Below, in pieces: positions 4,974 through 19,645 of a DNA stretch of 21,936 nt; within the stretch, counting starts at the first letter, position 1, and each line of letters starts with the position of its first letter. The notes under the pieces were generated by a model. That model was not told the DNA's origin. It saw only the letters and a list, made by a program, of their open reading frames with translations, and made no database searches. The translations under genes and the position numbers were made by a program. Source of the stretch: a virus; IMG/VR virus record IMGVR_UViG_3300020442_000155, positions 1-21,936 of that record; one strand, given 5' to 3'.

Positions 4974-7900
4974 CTATTGTGCCAATTTGTCAGCATTTTT
5001 AAGATTTATAAGCCTTTGATTAGATGACATGATGTGTTCCTTTGCTAAGGCTCTTTTGTTTTCTAATACATCTTGAAACAACTCATACTTTTCCTCATCG
5101 TCTTTTGCTAAAAAGTACGCTCTACTTTCATCCGTGTTTGGTTGTATGTATGCATTAAGTTTGTTTAGTAATGTTTGTTTGATGTTATAGCCAACATCTC
5201 CCGGCATATTACCGTTATCATCAATGTTATTGATGGTCTTTACATGGTTTATATACTCTTCATTGAGTAGCTGATATCCGCCAAGTTTTCTTCCGTGATA
5301 CGCAAAAGTACCAGCACCACTGATAGACAACCGTAAAAGCTCTCTATCTAGAGGGGTGTATTTACCAGTCTGTATTCTAAATGGATTGAATGCCATGCCA
5401 AGTTTACCTTTTTCTTTCAGCACATTGGGATCAAGTTGGTACAACTCTTCTCCCCAGAAATTTACATCTCCCGGTAAATCTTTTGAAAAGAAGGGGGATC
5501 GGGATCTTGATTGATTAAGACCCAAATAAAATGCTTTCCAGAAAGACCCAAGATCTTCTATTCTGTCACCAGTGATCTGATCTGGAGCAAGCAAGGTATT
5601 TGATTTTGTAGGATCGCCAAGCCTCTCAAGAGTTCCCATTAAGCTGTTAGACCCTATAAATGGATAGTCAACCCCAACCGCTCTCAAAGCTGATCCAGCT
5701 CCAAGAGAGGTAAATGTCTCAGCTTGACCTCCAACATTCATCACAACATTTGCTGTTCTAGAGCCTAGCCATGATAGCAGTTTGCTCTCTCTACTATCAG
5801 CACCCTCAAATCTATTAAATACAAGGTTTTGAAACTCAGCAACACCTTGTAAAAACGGAACCGCACTTGAATATTCAGTAACAGCCATCGTCAGTGTTTT
5901 TGCTAGTTTTTCTGTAAGTGGGCTATCTGGGTGATATTCTGCATAGTTTACATAATCGGCTACAGCAATCAGTAACATCGATAAAGGATCAAATCTGTTG
6001 AATGAATAAAACTTGTAGCTATCATCATCTTGCTTTATGCCAATACTTGTTGGAGGCACATTTGCCCCCTTATTAAGTATATCTCTTGCTCTACTATCTC
6101 CCGGCCCTGTTCCAGTAATAATAATATCATCACCATAGTATCCGCTTATAAAAGCTGTCATAGTAGTCATGACACCCCATCCAGTTACAAGTTTAGCAAA
6201 AGCCTCATCAAACTCCCTACCTTTACCCTCTCTCAAAGCTCTGGCCGTAGGAAACACATTGAGTGTTCTATCTCCTATCTCTTTAATTATGTTCGTAGGT
6301 GTTTTATAGAAGGGAACTCCAAGAAACTTAACGGCAGGGTTTCCAAAAATTCTAGCAAAGCCATCACCGGTAGGAGCTTGAAAAGTTTCTTTAAGAGCCG
6401 TTTCGGTCATTCTGTTTCTAACTTCTTTACTTGGGTTAGTAAGGACTTGCTTATAGATTGCCGTGCCATACTCTTGAGCTGACAGCTCCCCTTTGATTAG
6501 CTCACCTTGATCATTATAGACAGGCTTTTCCATATCTGGTGTCCTTCTAAGTGGCACCCCAGCTTGAACTCTTCTTTGAATTTCAATGGCTGATGCACGA
6601 AATGCCTCTTGATACTGCACTCGTCTTTTGATCATTACCTTAAAATATTCATCCTCCATCGCTAGAAATCTACCCGGTAAACGAGTGGCAACTCCAATAG
6701 TGTTAAGGAAAGCTCCACCTAGTTCGCCTCTTGATGCTTGCTCCATAATCTCCACAACATTATTTGTTGCTTGAACAGTGACATTTCCATCCTTATTAAA
6801 CTTTGTCTTAGGGCCAATGCCAATCCGCTCAAGATCAATCTTTCCAAACTTTGCCTGTATGTCTCCACTCTCTCCAGTAATCAGGGTTTTTGCCATGAGA
6901 GTAAAAGCATCTTTCTGAGCCATGAGTGAGCCATGTAGGTGAGCGTAAGCCTCTATAGCCATAGTCATATCTTCCGGGTCAACCCTCATTCCTAGACCTT
7001 TTCTAATAGCTTGCCGAGTATTTCCTATAACTCCTGCAACACCAGTCTCTAAGACCCTCATAACTTGAAAGACACCGTTGCCAGCTACATTTACTGAGTG
7101 TGTGACCGGTGAAGATAAAAGAGCATTAATATACATCTCCATAATAATATCTACGCTTTTTTTGATTGGAGAGTTTTGGACATAACTTTGTCTTTGCCTA
7201 AAATTTAACGCAGACAATGTCTGTAGTTCATAAGCAATTTTATTACGACCGTTTTGCCCTACTATATCATCAATTGTTGTTTGGGCTAGACCATCATATT
7301 TTTCATCTATCGTTCTAAAATCAACGTCCAGCACTTGCTCAATCTTTGAAACAACACTTAAAACTCTACCACCTTCGCTCACTCCTCCACCCAACTGAGC
7401 TGAAACTGTTTTTGACATCTCCATCAGTCTTTGTATTTTTGCATAATCCTCTAGCAGTTGTTTATCAGAAAATGCCTTGGGATCTATATCACCAGTTTGC
7501 GTGTCTCCAATTCTTCCCTTGAGTTTGTCTATGCCATACATAAGTTCTTGGTCTAGCTTTTGTAGAACAATCAACCCACCAAACACCTCAGCCGGGTTGA
7601 GCATTTGTCCGGGTTTTCTGAGCATAAGAGTTTCAGATATTTTATCAAAACCAATCTCGCCAGCTTGTTTAGCGATATCTTGCAAAGTCATAGTTCCTCT
7701 TCGGGCCTCCTCAAACAGTTCAGCATTCATTGCTTTGAGGTTTTGCAAGAGATCTCCCGGCTTACCAATAATGTTTACAAGCTGATCATCCAGAGCATCA
7801 AAATTTTTATCAAAGATTTCCCCGATCCTACCTAGTTTCATGCCTTTCTCTTTGCCCTTCTTCGGAGCAAAAAGATTGACGATTTCATCCATACTATCTT

Positions 7901-13091: not shown

Positions 13092-15125
13092 TTATGCTCC
13101 TGTCGAAAGTTTGTACTCTACTGCCAATACTGTAGCAAATAGAGGTTTGGTCATGGTAAAAGTAATCTGGGCCTCACTGGTGTAACCAAGTAAAGGAGAC
13201 ATTCGTTTTCTCCCGGTGAAGGTTGCGATTGCTGTATCTAGTGTGTGTGGAAATTCTCTGAACGGTATCTCATTCCCATTGATGGCGAGGTTCTGTGTCC
13301 TGTCTAATATTGGCGATACCTCTAGTATTCTTTTTTTTCGGCTGGTGACAACTCCGCTGGCTAGCCGTGGCTCTACCGGCATGGTCTTGACCTCGACATC
13401 GTAAGGTAGACCTACCTCAACATATGTCGTTGGAACAGCATCTAATGTTATTTGACCAGAGGAGACAGTCTTATTTGTAAGAACAAAGTCATCACGAATG
13501 ACGTTGACTTCCTTAGCCTCTAGATGGGAAAGGCTCCCGGCAGTGGTGTTGGTTGGCTTTGCTTGATCCGGGGCGGTTGCTCCAGAAAAATACTGAATGT
13601 TTGCATCAGTTGTACGGTCATCATCAAAGCACTCAAGATAATGCTTGGTGGCTGAGTTGACTGTCCGTTTGACTATGACGTATATATCTTCGATATCAAC
13701 AGCAACATCCTCAAATGTTCCGTCTGTAATAAACTCTGATGGGGCTATGACATTCTGTGGTTTGAGTATTGAGTAGACACACATAGATCCATCAGTACCG
13801 TTTGTAATCATAAGAAGGTCACCGTCATCAGTAGACGTTGCCACCCGGAGAGCCATCTTCTGTGGGTTCTTCAACAAATGGGAGGAAAGAAGAGATACAT
13901 TGTCTGAATTATAATTTAGGTCTGTATCGCTAAATATAAGCTCTCTGAGGGCTTTACCGGACTTTTGAATGTAAAGGGTGCCGGTTTCCGCTGACACAGG
14001 CTTGATGCCCTCTTTTGAGCCTCTCCGGGTAGCAACCTTAATTACGATGTTAGATGGTGTGATTGGATCGAGTGTTGACTGTGGTATAAAGAACTCAGCC
14101 GATGACGTAAAGATTTGTAAGTCTCGGCCAGAGCGGATAGCATTGATAGCATTCAGACTATCGCTGGATATCGTTACGAACAACGCATCATCATCCAAAG
14201 CCTCGTCTGTTTTAAAATTAAAGAAGTCAGCCACCTTTGATCCAAATAGTGTGTTAGGCATGGACTTTGACCCACCAAAGAACAATCGTCCTTCGTGAAA
14301 GGTACAAGTCCTAGGAAAGCCTCTTGTGCTGGAGAAGACAGCCTCGTACCCTGTCTCAAGTTCCCATGATCCAGATGCTATTGCAACCGATGCCTCAAAG
14401 AAGGGTATCTCTACAACTGTCTTAACAACGGTCGAACTTTCAAACTCTATAATCCTTGCACGACCAAAACCATTTAGGACATTGATATATTGATTGACGT
14501 TGCCAGAGGAGAATATACCGGAAGAGGCAGTTATCTTTACTGTACCATCAACAGCATCCGGTGTAATGGTTGCACTTGGGTTGGAGGTTGCAAGAGTAAA
14601 CGCATGGAAGGGAGAGGTCAGAGATATTGTACTCTCTGTCCAAGTTGAATTAGTGCCACCTCTTACAATCTTTCTTGGAGCTAGGTCTTCTTGTACGAGT
14701 ATCAATGTATCAGCCGATTGTGTAAATGATAGCTTAGAGAGGTCTATATCGCCAAGGTTGATAGCAAGATAGTCATTGCCTGAGCTATTGATATTTGAGA
14801 TCAAGACCTTGTTTGCATAAACAAACATTCTTGTCTCTGACGCTGACTGCTTGACAAAAACCAACATGAAACTCTGATCATTACTAAATTCAAACGGTAT
14901 TAGCCTCATGCCATTCTGAGCATTGAATGACCCACCAAGGTGACTACTGAGGTCTTGTAGAAAGGCTAGACCCGGTCTTCTCTCAAAGCCCCCCTGTGGC
15001 ATGACCGTTACATTCTTGGCTCTATCGAGAGCAGAAGGATACTGGTTGAGGTCTACCCGGCCTTTGACTAAAGGATCAAGCTCACCAACTGTGAAGTTTG
15101 ATTGATAGACTGTTACCCGGCTCAT
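13092..15125 (-). CDS. Tail tubular protein B (nozzle), T7 gp12-like
   Basis: A 677-aa protein beginning MSRVTVYQSNFTVGELDPLV followed by KGRVDLNQYPSALDRAKNVT and VMPQGGFERRPG. This 'NFTxGExxPxxxGRxDLxxY...NxxVxPQGGxxRRPG' start is the hallmark of podovirus tail tubular protein B, the nozzle that closes the tail. Beta-rich segments fill the rest, including RTCTFHEGRLFFGGSKSMPN near residues 270-290, a conserved stretch of the family. Length is in the normal range (T7 gp12 is 794 aa). It overlaps tail tubular A by ATGA, as is usual for this stoichiometrically linked pair. Identification is from family knowledge of the N-terminal signature plus synteny. Confidence 0.94.
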   Translation of the reverse strand: MSRVTVYQSNFTVGELDPLVKGRVDLNQYPSALDRAKNVTVMPQGGFERRPGLAFLQDLSSHLGGSFNAQNGMRLIPFEFSNDQSFMLVFVKQSASETRMFVYANKVLISNINSSGNDYLAINLGDIDLSKLSFTQSADTLILVQEDLAPRKIVRGGTNSTWTESTISLTSPFHAFTLATSNPSATITPDAVDGTVKITASSGIFSSGNVNQYINVLNGFGRARIIEFESSTVVKTVVEIPFFEASVAIASGSWELETGYEAVFSSTRGFPRTCTFHEGRLFFGGSKSMPNTLFGSKVADFFNFKTDEALDDDALFVTISSDSLNAINAIRSGRDLQIFTSSAEFFIPQSTLDPITPSNIVIKVATRRGSKEGIKPVSAETGTLYIQKSGKALRELIFSDTDLNYNSDNVSLLSSHLLKNPQKMALRVATSTDDGDLLMITNGTDGSMCVYSILKPQNVIAPSEFITDGTFEDVAVDIEDIYVIVKRTVNSATKHYLECFDDDRTTDANIQYFSGATAPDQAKPTNTTAGSLSHLEAKEVNVIRDDFVLTNKTVSSGQITLDAVPTTYVEVGLPYDVEVKTMPVEPRLASGVVTSRKKRILEVSPILDRTQNLAINGNEIPFREFPHTLDTAIATFTGRKRMSPLLGYTSEAQITFTMTKPLFATVLAVEYKLSTGA

Positions 15126-15736
15126 CTGACATCTACCAGCACATAATCAGCAAGAACTTGAGAAGACTGACCAGAACCATCAATTACGGTTGCCTGTCGA
15201 AAGTATCCGCCTCTCAAACTTTCAAGAGGAGTTCCAAGAGCAACATTCTTCCAATATTCTGACTTTGTTGTTTGATCGGTTACCGGCTCGGCTAGATGCC
15301 ATGCCATTTGATAGATAAGCAACTGCACAAAGTATGCCGGCATTGCTGGCTCATCAACATCTCTTTGATAGTCTATGTAGATAGTTTGCTCTTGAGAGAG
15401 CAGTTCAGCACCTTGGATCTCATAGTCTGTGAGGTTTGGTGCATTCGTATTGTTTGATGTAAATACTTTTCTAGGAACACCATTGACCATGTCAGACGGA
15501 AGAGCATACGCATACTTCCAAAAAGACAAAGGAGTGGACGCTGACTGAGCTAACTGTGTTTTAGTAAGAGAGAAGCTCCAAGGATACATCCCAAGAGTTT
15601 GAGCTTTGACCTTTGGATAAAGAACCCCGGCTATCGATGCCGGGGCAGTTCCATCGGAAAAGGAGGATATACTCGTTGATCCGAGCAGTAATAGGGCTTG
15701 AGAACAAATAGATACGTCTGTGTCTGTGCTTGCCAT
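15122..15736 (-). CDS. Tail tubular protein A (head-tail adaptor), T7 gp11-like
   Basis: A 204-aa protein with ICSQALLLLGSTSISSFSDG at the N-terminus, LYPKVKAQTLGMYPWSFSLT (residues ~38-57), WKYAYALPSDMVNGV and YQMAWHLAEPVTDQT. These are the classic blocks of gp11-type proteins: a helix pair, 'WxFA(Y)xLP', and a helical C-terminal part that docks on the portal. Length is as expected (T7 gp11 is 196 aa). The start is set by AAAAGGGG five bases before the ATG. That site lies in a small hairpin, with a stronger hairpin just upstream, so initiation or read-through may be tuned here. Its stop overlaps tail tubular B as ATGA. Confidence 0.93.
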   Translation of the reverse strand: MASTDTDVSICSQALLLLGSTSISSFSDGTAPASIAGVLYPKVKAQTLGMYPWSFSLTKTQLAQSASTPLSFWKYAYALPSDMVNGVPRKVFTSNNTNAPNLTDYEIQGAELLSQEQTIYIDYQRDVDEPAMPAYFVQLLIYQMAWHLAEPVTDQTTKSEYWKNVALGTPLESLRGGYFRQATVIDGSGQSSQVLADYVLVDVR

Positions 15737-15737
15737 T

Positions 15738-15755
15738 CAAACCCCTTTTGGTTTG
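15738..15755 (-). promoter_or_regulatory. Small hairpin over the ribosome binding site of tail tubular A
   Basis: On the minus strand CAAACC pairs with GGTTTG around a 6-base loop AAAAGG. The Shine-Dalgarno AAAAGGGG of the tail tubular A gene is partly in the loop and partly in the 3' arm. It could lower initiation until a ribosome or polymerase opens it. The stem is short (6 bp) and may be fortuitous. Confidence 0.4.
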
Positions 15756-15778
15756 GGAGGCAGTCGGAACTACCCCCC
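15755..15778 (-). terminator. Strong hairpin between head and tail genes (terminator/processing element)
   Basis: Minus strand: GGGGGGTAGT, loop TCCG, ACTGCCTCCC. The ten stem positions pair fully when G-U pairs are allowed, and the loop fits the UNCG class of very stable tetraloops. The wobble pairs are only valid on the minus-strand RNA, which argues that the structure acts in the sense transcript. There is no U-run after the stem, so it is not a textbook intrinsic terminator. In T7 the late terminator lies at the equivalent place, between the capsid and gp11 genes. It could attenuate, mark RNase III processing or protect the capsid mRNA. Confidence 0.55.
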
Positions 15779-15785
15779 AAGAATA

Positions 15786-16070
15786 TTAGTCACTGTCTGA
15801 TACAGCTCCGATTGTTGTTCCATCGGATACGTCCACAACACCTGATGCGTTGCTGACTACTATATGCATTGTGACTGTTCTTGTGCCACCGGTTGAACCG
15901 TGAACGATGATCATGTCACCTACGTTGAGAATGTCGGATAGATCGTTGAAGTATCCTGACGCATCAACTGCGGTGTGAGCCTCGGTTGTGGTATAGACAT
16001 ACATTGCTGGAGTAACTCCGGCTCTGGCCTGTCCACCGATGGTATTGAAATCATTTCTAACAAATGCCAT
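15786..16070 (-). CDS. Putative capsid decoration / head-associated protein (94 aa)
   Basis: MAFVRNDFNTIGGQARAGVT is followed by YVYTTTEAHTAVDASGYFND, LSDILNVGDMIIVHGS and VTMHIVVSNASGVVDVSDGT. The 'TVDASGYFNDxxxxLxVGDxI' block with a C-terminal beta segment recurs in small proteins encoded immediately after podovirus coat genes, which I interpret as head decoration or fibre-like proteins; direct proof is lacking. The start is one base after the coat gene's TAA, with GGGAG 9 bases before it, so its synthesis is likely tied to that of the coat. I found no slippery frameshift site at the coat 3' end that would fuse the two. Confidence 0.75.
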   Translation of the reverse strand: MAFVRNDFNTIGGQARAGVTPAMYVYTTTEAHTAVDASGYFNDLSDILNVGDMIIVHGSTGGTRTVTMHIVVSNASGVVDVSDGTTIGAVSDSD

Positions 16071-16071
16071 C

Positions 16072-16929
16072 TTAGCTCTCCCTACAAGTTACATCACATA
16101 TACCGTTGACATCGACCGCTATCGCTCCTGCCGAATACATGGCAGTCACAAGAAACGATGTTCTCTCTGGTATATAGTTGATTTCTGTTTTAGCTGGCAT
16201 ACCGATACCAAGACCTATTGCAGATTTGTGAAACGCTACACACGTTCTGTCATTTGATCCATCGATTGGAATACCGCCCTCATCTCTGTCACCAAACATA
16301 ATTATATTAAATCCAGCAAATTGAGATAACTCACCTCTGGCCAGAGCTTGAAGTTGTATAAAATCTGAGCTAACGGCTCTTTCATCTCCAAGTAAGGAGG
16401 CCATTGAGTTGGCATGGACTAAGAGGTATCTCTCGGTTGAGGGTACGTTTTTAGCGTTGAGTAATTTACCAGCCTCAATAATCTTTCCGACATTAAGGTC
16501 AGAGGCAGTCGCTGAACCAGAAGTAACCACAGTATTAGCAACGGTTGACCCGGCTGATGCGTTGATCAAGGCATCAATAACGACTTGGTCTTCTCGTCTG
16601 GCTATGGCTTTTCCTAGCATCTCAGCAAGCTCTGCTCTTTCGTCAAAGTTTACTTTGGCTTGGTTAAAAATGTCACTGTACTCTGATGCAGAATAGTCCA
16701 CCATTGTTGCGGAAACCGAACTGAAATCAGCCCCAACTGGGGTGACCTGAGTTCCGGGTGAACGAACAGAGGCTGTGCCTTTGGCTAAGATTGGGAACTT
16801 TACGGTTGAACCTTCTACGTTTGCTCTGGTTCTCACGGTTCCAGCAAGTTTAGCCTCAGACTGATAAGCCTGATGAACTTCGCTTTCAAAGATAGTGACG
16901 AATGCTGTACTGATATTGTTGTTCGACAT
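16072..16929 (-). CDS. Major capsid protein
   Basis: A 285-aa protein with SEVHQAYQSEAKLAGTVRTR, VEGSTVKFPILAKGTASVRS, DQVVIDALINAS, YLLVHANSMASLLGDERAVS and LSQFAGFNIIMFG in order. These are typical of podovirus coat proteins with the HK97 fold: an N-terminal arm, beta strands of the E-loop/P-domain region, and an A-domain stretch 'LLGDxxxxSxDF...G.l..FxGFNII'. Its place directly after the scaffold confirms it. Length is short but within the range of small coats without added domains. GGAG lies 8 bases before the ATG. It is preceded by the longest gap in the window, where promoter or attenuation signals might be expected. Confidence 0.93.
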   Translation of the reverse strand: MSNNNISTAFVTIFESEVHQAYQSEAKLAGTVRTRANVEGSTVKFPILAKGTASVRSPGTQVTPVGADFSSVSATMVDYSASEYSDIFNQAKVNFDERAELAEMLGKAIARREDQVVIDALINASAGSTVANTVVTSGSATASDLNVGKIIEAGKLLNAKNVPSTERYLLVHANSMASLLGDERAVSSDFIQLQALARGELSQFAGFNIIMFGDRDEGGIPIDGSNDRTCVAFHKSAIGLGIGMPAKTEINYIPERTSFLVTAMYSAGAIAVDVNGICDVTCRES

Positions 16930-17069
16930 CTATCGCTCCATAAAAAAATTAACATTAGTGTTTTCTTGGTTATGGAATAAATCCGCCAATCAAAGTGATT
17001 GAACGGCTACAGATGTAGTTATCGCTCAACCCACCAGTACCATATCTTGAAAATTGAGTAAAGATAAAA
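16930..17069 (-). other. Intergenic region between scaffold and capsid genes
   Basis: This 140-base gap is the longest gene-free stretch. It contains a hairpin (16983-17006), a smaller inverted repeat CTAC-ATCT-GTAG near 17008-17020, a T-run shortly before the capsid start and the capsid GGAG site. I could not find a convincing sigma-70 promoter. A phage-polymerase promoter would need comparison with the rest of the genome. It could be the leader that sets high capsid expression. Confidence 0.5.
16983..17006 (-). terminator. Hairpin before the capsid gene, weak terminator or processing site
   Basis: Minus strand: CCGTTCAATCA, loop CTT, TGATTGGCGG. Nine Watson-Crick pairs form, with one G-U pair and one bulged T. 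The sequence after it (ATTTATTCC) is U-rich but not a true U-run. Possible roles are attenuation, an RNA end or an RNase III site separating scaffold from capsid mRNA. Confidence 0.4.
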
Positions 17070-17855: not shown

Positions 17856-18114
17856 TCTTTGCTCTCCTTATTCTACTGTTTATCTGTCTAACTAGAGAGT
17901 TTTGACCCTCCCTAAAGTACCCATGACTTGGATCGTTGCCGGGAAACCAGCACGGTTGGTCTGTTGTTGTACTCTCTAAATGTTTTAAAACCTTGAGGCC
18001 ATCCGGTGTATTGAATACAGTCGCATACAGCATATCCATTTGAGATGCTTGCGGATCCTCACCGACATCCGGCCAAAGATCCTCATCAAGCTGGTTGTTC
18101 TGGTTCTCCGCCAC
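17848..18114 (-). CDS. Bbp19-like small phage protein
   Basis: An 88-aa protein with VFNTPDGLKVLKHLESTTTD (residues ~33-52) and FREGQNSLVRQINSRI near the C-terminus. 'VFxTxxGxxVLxxL ... FREGxxxxVxxI' is the pattern of the Bbp19-type phage domain, a small head-region protein of unknown role found near portal genes. The acidic N-terminal 25 residues are not part of that pattern. The start given is a GTG lying within the end of the portal gene, with GGAAGG immediately before it, which is closer than ideal. ATG codons at residues 26 and 28 would give a shorter protein but have no Shine-Dalgarno. The stop overlaps the scaffold start by 8 bases. Confidence 0.72.
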   Translation of the reverse strand: MAENQNNQLDEDLWPDVGEDPQASQMDMLYATVFNTPDGLKVLKHLESTTTDQPCWFPGNDPSHGYFREGQNSLVRQINSRIRRAKNV

Positions 18115-19645
18115 CTTCCATCATTCCTTGTTGTTGAGCCATTTGCTGGGCTTGTTGCATTAGCATTTGCTGTATCTGTTGTCGTTCTTCCGCTGTGAGC
18201 CTAACTTCAGCCGGGATGGCTAATTGATCGGCAATGTATTCAAGCAATACCTCCTGCTTGACGGCAAGCTGTCCTGCCGGCCCCATACTCTGAGCTATCT
18301 GCATATATTGAAGTATCTCGTTCACCTTAGCCATATTCTGTGACATAGCAATCGGAGCCACTGGCTGTACCTTTACTTGTAGGCCATTTACCCTAAGAGG
18401 TAGCTCTATCATACCCAGCTCATCCATCACCTCAAGTGTTCGTCTAACGACCGGGTACATTGTTTCCTGTATAAGTCTACCAAAGCTACTACCTAAATTT
18501 TCAGATAGTATCTGCATCTTCGCTGATATCTCGGTAGCGGATCGGGCTGACGATGTATCGGGAGGCAACATATCATCCATGAGTATTTGCTTGATAGACA
18601 TCACGAGGTCTTGTTGTGACATTTGCGATAGTTGAGGATCTCCTGATCTGGGCAAGGGCTTGAGGCTTTCCCCTTGGTTACCACCGTTACGAGCCACCGG
18701 GATGATTGCTCCCGGCACTAGTCGCACCGCATTTGGGTTGAGAACACCATCATCCATTGCTGTATATACACCGGCTATAGAAAGAGAGGCATTCTTTAGG
18801 TGATACTCTTTGAGCTTATTCAACGTCTTTATATCGTGTAGTGCCGTCAGCACCGGGCCTCTTCCATACTTCTCGCCACTGGCTTTCATATATCGTGATA
18901 CTATCCAAGGGAAAGAGTTCATACGTCTATAGACTAACTCATCATCACCCTCTGCGGTTATGACATGATAGTGGTAGATACCCTCGTCCTTGTCATAACA
19001 AGTAATCTCATAGAGGTCTATCTTTTCATCTGGTCTGCCATCATACTTTTGTTTGAGCTGTTCCGGGATGTTGGCATCCGTAAACTCTTGGTCTAGGGCT
19101 ACAAAGGGTATCCTGTGGTTTCTGTATACCTTATCGACTGTGCCAAACGGCCCCTCATCATAGGCTATCAAAAAAGACGGAACGGCTGTATAACGAATGG
19201 GCTGTAACTCGTCACCCGGTTGGATGATCATGACAGCCGTTCCGATAGCTAGCTCTAGCAGGAACTCGCCCATCGCCATGTCAAAATTAGATTGACGCAT
19301 AACATCGAACATCTTATCAGCATATCCATCCAGCACACGCTGTATCTCTATGTGTCTCTCTGGTGGGATCTCCTCACCGGGAACTAGCCGGCACCAGTGT
19401 CTCTGTGTTGGGAACACCCCGGACTGTAGTCGATTTGCAAATCGCTGGGTTGAGTGTATTGCTGTACTGTCATAAACCCGGTTCATCTTATCATTTTTTG
19501 GAGAGGTCGTTTCGTAGTTGCCATCATAGAGGTTTCTATTAGGCAGGACATACCGGTAGGCATCTTCATAGATAGACCGCCACTCATCCTTGTGAGCCAT
19601 AGCCTTTTTGAAACGGCTTTTTAATGTAGTGACATCAAGTCTCAT
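18086..19645 (-). CDS. Portal (head-tail connector) protein
   Basis: A 519-aa protein matching podovirus head-to-tail connecting proteins (T7 gp8 type). It has LKSRFKKAMAHKDEWRSIYE at the N-terminus, MNRVYDSTAIHSTQRFANRL with QSGVFPTQRHWCRL (residues ~54-87), an LLELAIGTAVMIIQPGDE stretch at ~129-146, KASGEKYGRGPVLTALHDIK at ~256-275, and the long-helix region VMSIKQILMDDMLPPD around 345-362. The dodecameric portal is the DNA channel and docks terminase and tail tubular A. Length is close to T7 gp8 (536 aa). The C-terminal ~40 residues are Gln/Met-rich and probably disordered. Its ATG overlaps the stop of the 45-aa upstream gene (ATGA). Confidence 0.94.
   Translation of the reverse strand: MRLDVTTLKSRFKKAMAHKDEWRSIYEDAYRYVLPNRNLYDGNYETTSPKNDKMNRVYDSTAIHSTQRFANRLQSGVFPTQRHWCRLVPGEEIPPERHIEIQRVLDGYADKMFDVMRQSNFDMAMGEFLLELAIGTAVMIIQPGDELQPIRYTAVPSFLIAYDEGPFGTVDKVYRNHRIPFVALDQEFTDANIPEQLKQKYDGRPDEKIDLYEITCYDKDEGIYHYHVITAEGDDELVYRRMNSFPWIVSRYMKASGEKYGRGPVLTALHDIKTLNKLKEYHLKNASLSIAGVYTAMDDGVLNPNAVRLVPGAIIPVARNGGNQGESLKPLPRSGDPQLSQMSQQDLVMSIKQILMDDMLPPDTSSARSATEISAKMQILSENLGSSFGRLIQETMYPVVRRTLEVMDELGMIELPLRVNGLQVKVQPVAPIAMSQNMAKVNEILQYMQIAQSMGPAGQLAVKQEVLLEYIADQLAIPAEVRLTAEERQQIQQMLMQQAQQMAQQQGMMEGGGEPEQPA

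Follow-up and report, generated by a model that had tools for sequence, protein, structure and literature searches.

A conserved sense-strand hairpin between the head and tail genes of podoviruses as a possible 3′ boundary of the head-gene message

How a phage that seemingly lacks an RNA polymerase of its own obtains high capsid relative to tail output from one late operon has been little studied. This question is raised by a hairpin found between the head and tail genes of a marine virus of bacteria. The stretch of DNA that we analyzed (the window) is the complete 21,936-base record, itself a fragment, and its late genes are on the minus strand. The features discussed here are:

18086-19645, minus strand: portal (Pfam Head-tail_con)
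16930-17069, minus strand: structured capsid leader, a putative companion element of the hairpin
16997-17031, minus strand: leader stem-loop 1, AUAA opposite C, 9+5 pairs
16966-16989, minus strand: leader stem-loop 2, C opposite AUAA, 4+3 pairs
16072-16929, minus strand: major capsid gene (Pfam Phage_capsid_2, 7.2e-63)
15786-16070, minus strand: 94-aa gene, which closes the head block (phrog_18004, a family with no function attached)
15737-15785, minus strand: gap of 49 bases separating the 94-aa gene from gp11
15753-15780, minus strand: hairpin 1, 12-bp stem with loop TCCG at 15765-15768
15740-15753, minus strand: hairpin 2, a weak fold of 4 pairs that touches the Shine-Dalgarno of gp11, unsupported as functional
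15122-15736, minus strand: tail tubular protein A (gp11-like; phrog_394 tail protein)
13092-15125, minus strand: nozzle / tail tubular protein B

Hairpin 1 exceeds chance. On the minus strand, bases 15780-15769 pair with 15764-15753 to form 12 pairs at -19.4 kcal/mol; the antisense of the 49-base gap folds to -12.0. Placed in 86 bases of context, the hairpin has a z of -2.18, with 5 of 200 shuffles folding equally well. The most stable 40-base fold of the window, both strands included, sits on it (-20.5, scan step 3), compared to a minus-strand mean of -5.1 (sd 3.0) and a plus-strand best of -17.7. An earlier sequence-only reading had located this structure correctly, together with the 49-base gap (15737-15785) and the loop TCCG. 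The stem that it described is real but consists of 12 pairs instead of ten, and the loop matches UNCG as proposed, yet is closed by a U-A pair.

Next, we looked at homologous junctions. The junction DNA found no match among named phages, and relatives were therefore collected by protein searches; when the portal protein was searched against genome contigs, no host genome came up. Among named phages, Methylophilales phage MEP301 is the closest, at 52.9% identity for the capsid and 52.5% for tail protein A; according to an excerpt of its published description, it is reported to have neither an RNA nor a DNA polymerase gene (PMC8024684). Together with the named phages, five viral-contig scans yielded 398 sequences, of which the window is one. 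The whole genomes L082 and L084 were excluded from this set and handled separately. The remaining set contains 369 sequences with a gp11 start, 366 with 100 bases before gp11 and 205 distinct 80-base upstream stretches.

Hairpin 1 is conserved in most of the relatives examined. A strong fold (reaching -15) is found at 176 of the 205 distinct junctions, a count of folds rather than of individually inspected structures. The best 40-base fold at the junctions has a mean of -19.5 kcal/mol compared to -9.6 in 8,200 control windows drawn from these loci, and 164 of 205 junctions beat all 40 of their own controls, these controls being mostly coding DNA. On the late-gene strand of MEP301 and of HTVC010P, the best-folding 40-mer (scan step 2) is the one at the junction; the other strand of HTVC010P has a better one at another place. 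In L096 (BcepC6B), the counted fold is in the coding sequence before gp11 and the head-end hairpin lies elsewhere. A hairpin follows the head genes in 14 of the 15 named phages inspected, all but ZCVPP1. Stems and loops vary widely among the 176 strong junctions, which comprise 118 distinct hairpin sequences.

Compensatory changes in homologous gaps, which the sequence-only reading had named as a check, are present in one set of relatives, hardly seen in another and absent from the window's own clade (these covariation counts omit alignments A2, A5 and A6). In the MEP301-like set (alignment A1; 19 junctions, 18 distinct rows), 162 of 162 cells are paired and double compensatory changes affect 6 of 9 pairs compared to 4.3 in shuffles (11 of 500 as high). 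The same alignment has 29 double-changed cells compared to 9.4 in shuffles (0 of 500 as high); pair types, at 11 versus 12.1 in shuffles, are not raised. In the window clade, with 20 sequences of which 17 are distinct, pairing at the 12 positions is kept in 99.5% of the cells with four one-sided changes and zero double changes, a pattern consistent with selection on pairing without proving it. Alignment A3 has one double-changed pair, a value reached by 49 of 500 shuffles, and gives scores just as good when the partners are slid. In wide-clade alignments covariation is weak or unusable because the hairpins fail to line up.

Strand preference gives a second type of evidence. The 118 distinct hairpins contain 243 G-U pairs and 13 A-C oppositions, compared to 595 and 90 in control stems. 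This is an approximately threefold excess, measured against controls because the stem caller by itself favours G-U, and it indicates that the sense RNA is the form that is kept. The argument that the G-U pairs fit only the sense transcript, originally made for the window, thereby extends to the relatives. Furthermore, 79 of 119 four-base loops are GNRA (37) or UNCG (42) compared to 9 of 52 in the control, and C(UUCG)G is present in 12 relatives. Because the sequences are related, the covariation, pairing and loop counts do not represent independent events. On sequence grounds, the hairpin is thus conserved as a sense-strand RNA structure. The strand-specific wobble pairs, the compensatory changes and the fold controls all speak against a DNA inverted repeat or a chance structure with no role as RNA. 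Inverted repeats do also serve as DNA sites, and we nevertheless regard this explanation as extremely improbable.

The position of the hairpin is informative as to its role. The late terminator of T7, which has a U run, stands between gene 10 and gene 11, and hairpin 1 is indeed, as the sequence-only reading noted, in the corresponding position between the head block and tail tubular protein A. Across relatives the stem has a median length of 11 pairs. Its median distance is 8 nt from the stop upstream (167 of 178 measured) and 20 nt from gp11 downstream. When other genes intervene, the hairpin stays at the head side. In L348 it immediately follows the 94-aa gene, and additional sequence separates it from gp11. 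An extra 200-aa frame separates the 94-aa gene from gp11 in L295 (3643-4245) and L324 (2931-3533), as do two extra frames in L322 (1565-2826); strong hairpins start about 8, 8 and 47 nt past the 94-aa stop, respectively, within the first codons of the extra frames. Similarly, a small gene lies between hairpin and gp11 in Skadi-4, HTVC034P, Greip, Lederberg and HTVC204P. The hairpin tracks the head block and not the gp11 start site, and this is our main reason for preferring a 3′-end role over a translational one.

The 29 of 205 junctions without a strong fold at the site comprise 19 members of one group, L351-L354 and L092, which lack the hairpin, and five in which it is displaced. In the two hairpin-less groups (23 of 205) the gap is about 18 bases. 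A presence/absence tree (FastTree, 188 rows) requires six changes, for which gain and loss are indistinguishable; its 25 rows scored as having none include three with a displaced hairpin (L348, L324 and L322). We also observed that in L028-type loci (e.g. L123, L126 and L167) and in L351-L354 the gap resembles that of hairpin-bearing relatives with the hairpin excised. In HTVC010P (KC465898, locus L084; 7275-7299), the annotated gene at 7275 begins with a GTG that lies within the hairpin's 5′ arm, and an in-frame ATG at 7299, just past the hairpin, better fits the homologous start of HTVC034P.

Could the element act on translation, with two hairpins governing access to the gp11 start site? The sequence-only reading had described a second hairpin that covers the Shine-Dalgarno and has one base in common with the first. 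The common base is there. Hairpin 2 as a functional part did not hold up: alone it has 4 pairs at -2.6 kcal/mol, its three non-shared pairs have no covariation within the window clade, and its fold is near chance. It does touch the Shine-Dalgarno, and in 130 bases of context this site pairs instead with early gp11 codons. Weak folds near the gp11 start are also found in the L053 and L078 groups and not in the window clade alone. Based on 196 gp11 starts, accessibility is slightly below synonymous shuffles in two of eight groups, L078 (0.41 versus 0.45) and the four-member L022, but equal to or above them in the other six. The stretch from hairpin 1 to gp11 folds at -1.56 compared to -1.20 in shuffles, a median of 43% of which fold as well (170 junctions). 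A conserved pairing that hides the Shine-Dalgarno, as in a switch that sequesters the ribosome-binding site, was not found in these groups, two of the eight giving slight signs of it. Accordingly, with accessibility mostly at or above shuffles and spacer folds near chance, we see no convincing sign of selected sequestration and dropped it as a candidate. Since, in addition, intervening genes can part the hairpin from the gp11 start, control of gp11 translation appears improbable.

Inside the gp11 coding sequence of the window there is also a terminator-like hairpin (15624-15646, minus strand), followed by TTCTTTATCC. Between +60 and +138 of gp11, 14 of 20 sequences of the window group have a fold of -12 or more stable. 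By position, the mean over 196 loci is -9.3 at +78 versus -5.5, and the mean z against synonymous shuffles is only -0.7 (99 loci).

The bases that follow the stem bear on termination. In the window they read ACCAAAAG, with no T in 8 bases, confirming the missing U-tract that the sequence-only reading had pointed out and setting the hairpin apart from the T7 late terminator; the 20 clade members have a mean of 0.35 T in 8. Over all 176 junctions the mean is 2.98, with at least 5 T in 23 and at least 6 T in 3. The frequency of T is 0.48 at +1 and 0.42 at +2 compared to a background of 0.26 (185 stems), a mild T-richness that lies outside the window's clade. In HTVC010P, HTVC034P, Vibrio phage 1.257, YeP5 and L348 the hairpin is followed by a T run. 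Thus the site spans from textbook terminator to bare hairpin among relatives. Compared to an intrinsic (Rho-independent) terminator, the window has the G+C-rich hairpin and lacks the U-tract, and a terminator scan of the window does not list the site. The window does have the stable intercistronic hairpin that characterizes exonuclease-blocking structures of the galE and puf kind, for which a U-tract is not needed. Searches with Rfam 15 families at the gathering threshold gave no match in the window or in 14 related loci, with weak sub-threshold matches only.

We therefore propose, with moderate confidence, that the intercistronic hairpin is the 3′ boundary of the head-gene message, where it would block exonucleases. 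Host RNA polymerase would transcribe the late genes as one long transcript, the tail part of which would end early or be cut. Exonucleases degrading from 3′ to 5′ would then halt at the hairpin, and the capsid message would outlive the tail message, leading to an excess of head over tail protein. The hairpin may additionally pause the polymerase and permit some termination. This proposal is based on the frequency of strong folds, the double changes in the MEP301-like set, the G-U bias, the GNRA and UNCG loops, the short distance to the upstream stop, the association with the head block, the rarity of U-tracts and the galE precedent. Against it are the zero double changes in the window clade, the single pair in A3, the unraised pair types in A1, the 23 of 205 junctions and L092 in which the hairpin is missing, the T-rich bases past the stem and the T runs in some relatives.

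The last two observations are instead those expected from a leaky terminator or a hairpin-stabilized pause, at which some host RNA polymerases would stop and others enter the tail genes. The location is that of the late terminator of T7 and of the post-capsid terminator of LUZ100, and T runs in some relatives together with the mild T-richness favour a putative terminator ancestry. With the next start about 20 nt away, read-through would be the simplest route to the tail genes. The T-less tail of the window, the low mean of its clade, the three junctions of 176 with at least 6 T and the absence of the site from the terminator scan argue the other way, and we consider this explanation possible but somewhat doubtful. 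Exonuclease blocking at a message boundary and leaky termination or pausing could act together. A processing site, with RNase III cleaving the late transcript to separate a head from a tail message, is very unlikely: RNase III does cut the late mRNAs of T7 and the stem is stable and located between cistrons, but a median of 11 pairs is short, RNase III substrates being usually longer, and stem lengths and loops vary.

The gap before the capsid gene is structured too, and covers 140 bases in the window (16930-17069, minus strand). In the L170-L249 group it holds a leader RNA of about 105 nt (e.g. L233:2355-2459) with several covarying helices: double changes are found in 11 of 29 model pairs, with 48 double-changed cells compared to 12.6 in shuffles, and one helix is poorly aligned (69.7% paired). 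Model R1, built from 31 sequences of this group (21 is the number of L170-L249 rows), matches 79 of 80 L170-L249 loci, partly by construction, and 0 of 16 other loci. With an E limit of 10, R1 had 14 matches in a set of 50 sources; for ten of these, E was no higher than 1.6e-7. The matches with a listed capsid start lie immediately before that start. The leader RNA has no Rfam match in the window and 14 related loci. It is a candidate new RNA family, and as such would be a more novel item than the hairpin.

R1 gives no match to the window, whose leader we consequently do not claim as a member. The window leader has two stem-loops in which an AUAA strand is opposite a single C (17031-16997 and 16989-16966). 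Descriptors of this AUAA/C motif were written after inspecting these leaders, which makes the following rates optimistic: type 1 is found in 18 of 23 window-group leaders compared to 0 of 106 control windows, and in three other groups in 46 of 56 (control 11 of 257), 15 of 15 (0 of 69) and 9 of 19 (2 of 86). It is not enriched in L053-D (0 of 19; control 0 of 85) or the MEP301-like group (2 of 70; control 8 of 321). Type 2 is found in 23 of 23 window-group leaders (control 6 of 106), 44 of 56 (13 of 257) and 10 of 19 (3 of 86), and in the remaining groups in 0 of 15, 1 of 19 and 4 of 70. By descriptor search, the window leader and its relatives thus have a motif in common, and the window leader may be the relatives' structure reduced to two AUAA/C stem-loops. 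Visual inspection had suggested that the capsid leader contains an anti-Shine-Dalgarno, but this was rejected as a general rule, the longest match being 5.57 compared to 5.23 in shuffles (198 sequences).

Tentatively, and with less confidence than for the boundary role of the hairpin, the head genes could form a bracketed mRNA cassette, with a leader RNA of a new family in front and a U-less hairpin after the 94-aa gene; the leader perhaps binds a protein that tunes the capsid. These podoviruses appear to rely on host RNA polymerase. If the cassette is real, host polymerase and nucleases would do the job that the promoter and terminator around gene 10 do in T7.

We found no description of the hairpin's place, spread and missing U-tract in these phages in the open-licence literature, which is weak evidence of novelty. 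Conserved hairpins that lack a U-tract easily escape terminator predictors. For Skadi-1, the excerpted paper states that no terminator was found (PMC10504331), whereas the hairpin is present in Skadi-4, a relative of that phage.

The device itself is of a known kind. Extra-stable, UUCG-capped CUUCGG hairpins stand between T4 genes, and 12 relatives share this C(UUCG)G; unlike them, the window has U(UCCG)A and 37 of the 119 relatives with four-base loops have GNRA. The puf operon, a bacterial photosynthesis operon unlike the phage late operon, also has an intercistronic stem-loop. By the title given in the reference list of PMC9239205 (Cell 1988), it is an mRNA decay terminator between unequally expressed cistrons. 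In LUZ100 a strong terminator directly follows the capsid gene, according to an excerpt of its description (PMC10134795). The LUZ100 and T7 terminators occupy the same place as the hairpin, after the head block and before tail tubular protein A, in phages that both have their own polymerases. The E-hairpin of galE in the E. coli gal operon, as described in an excerpt of PMC9239205, is like hairpin 1 intercistronic, with 7 G-C pairs, 1 G-U pair and a 4-base loop; it lies about 100 nt past the galE stop in a bacterial operon, whereas the phage stem lies a median of 8 nt past the stop in late operons. According to the same source, the galE hairpin blocks 3′-5′ exonuclease after Rho-dependent termination and, as proposed there, may stabilize pausing.
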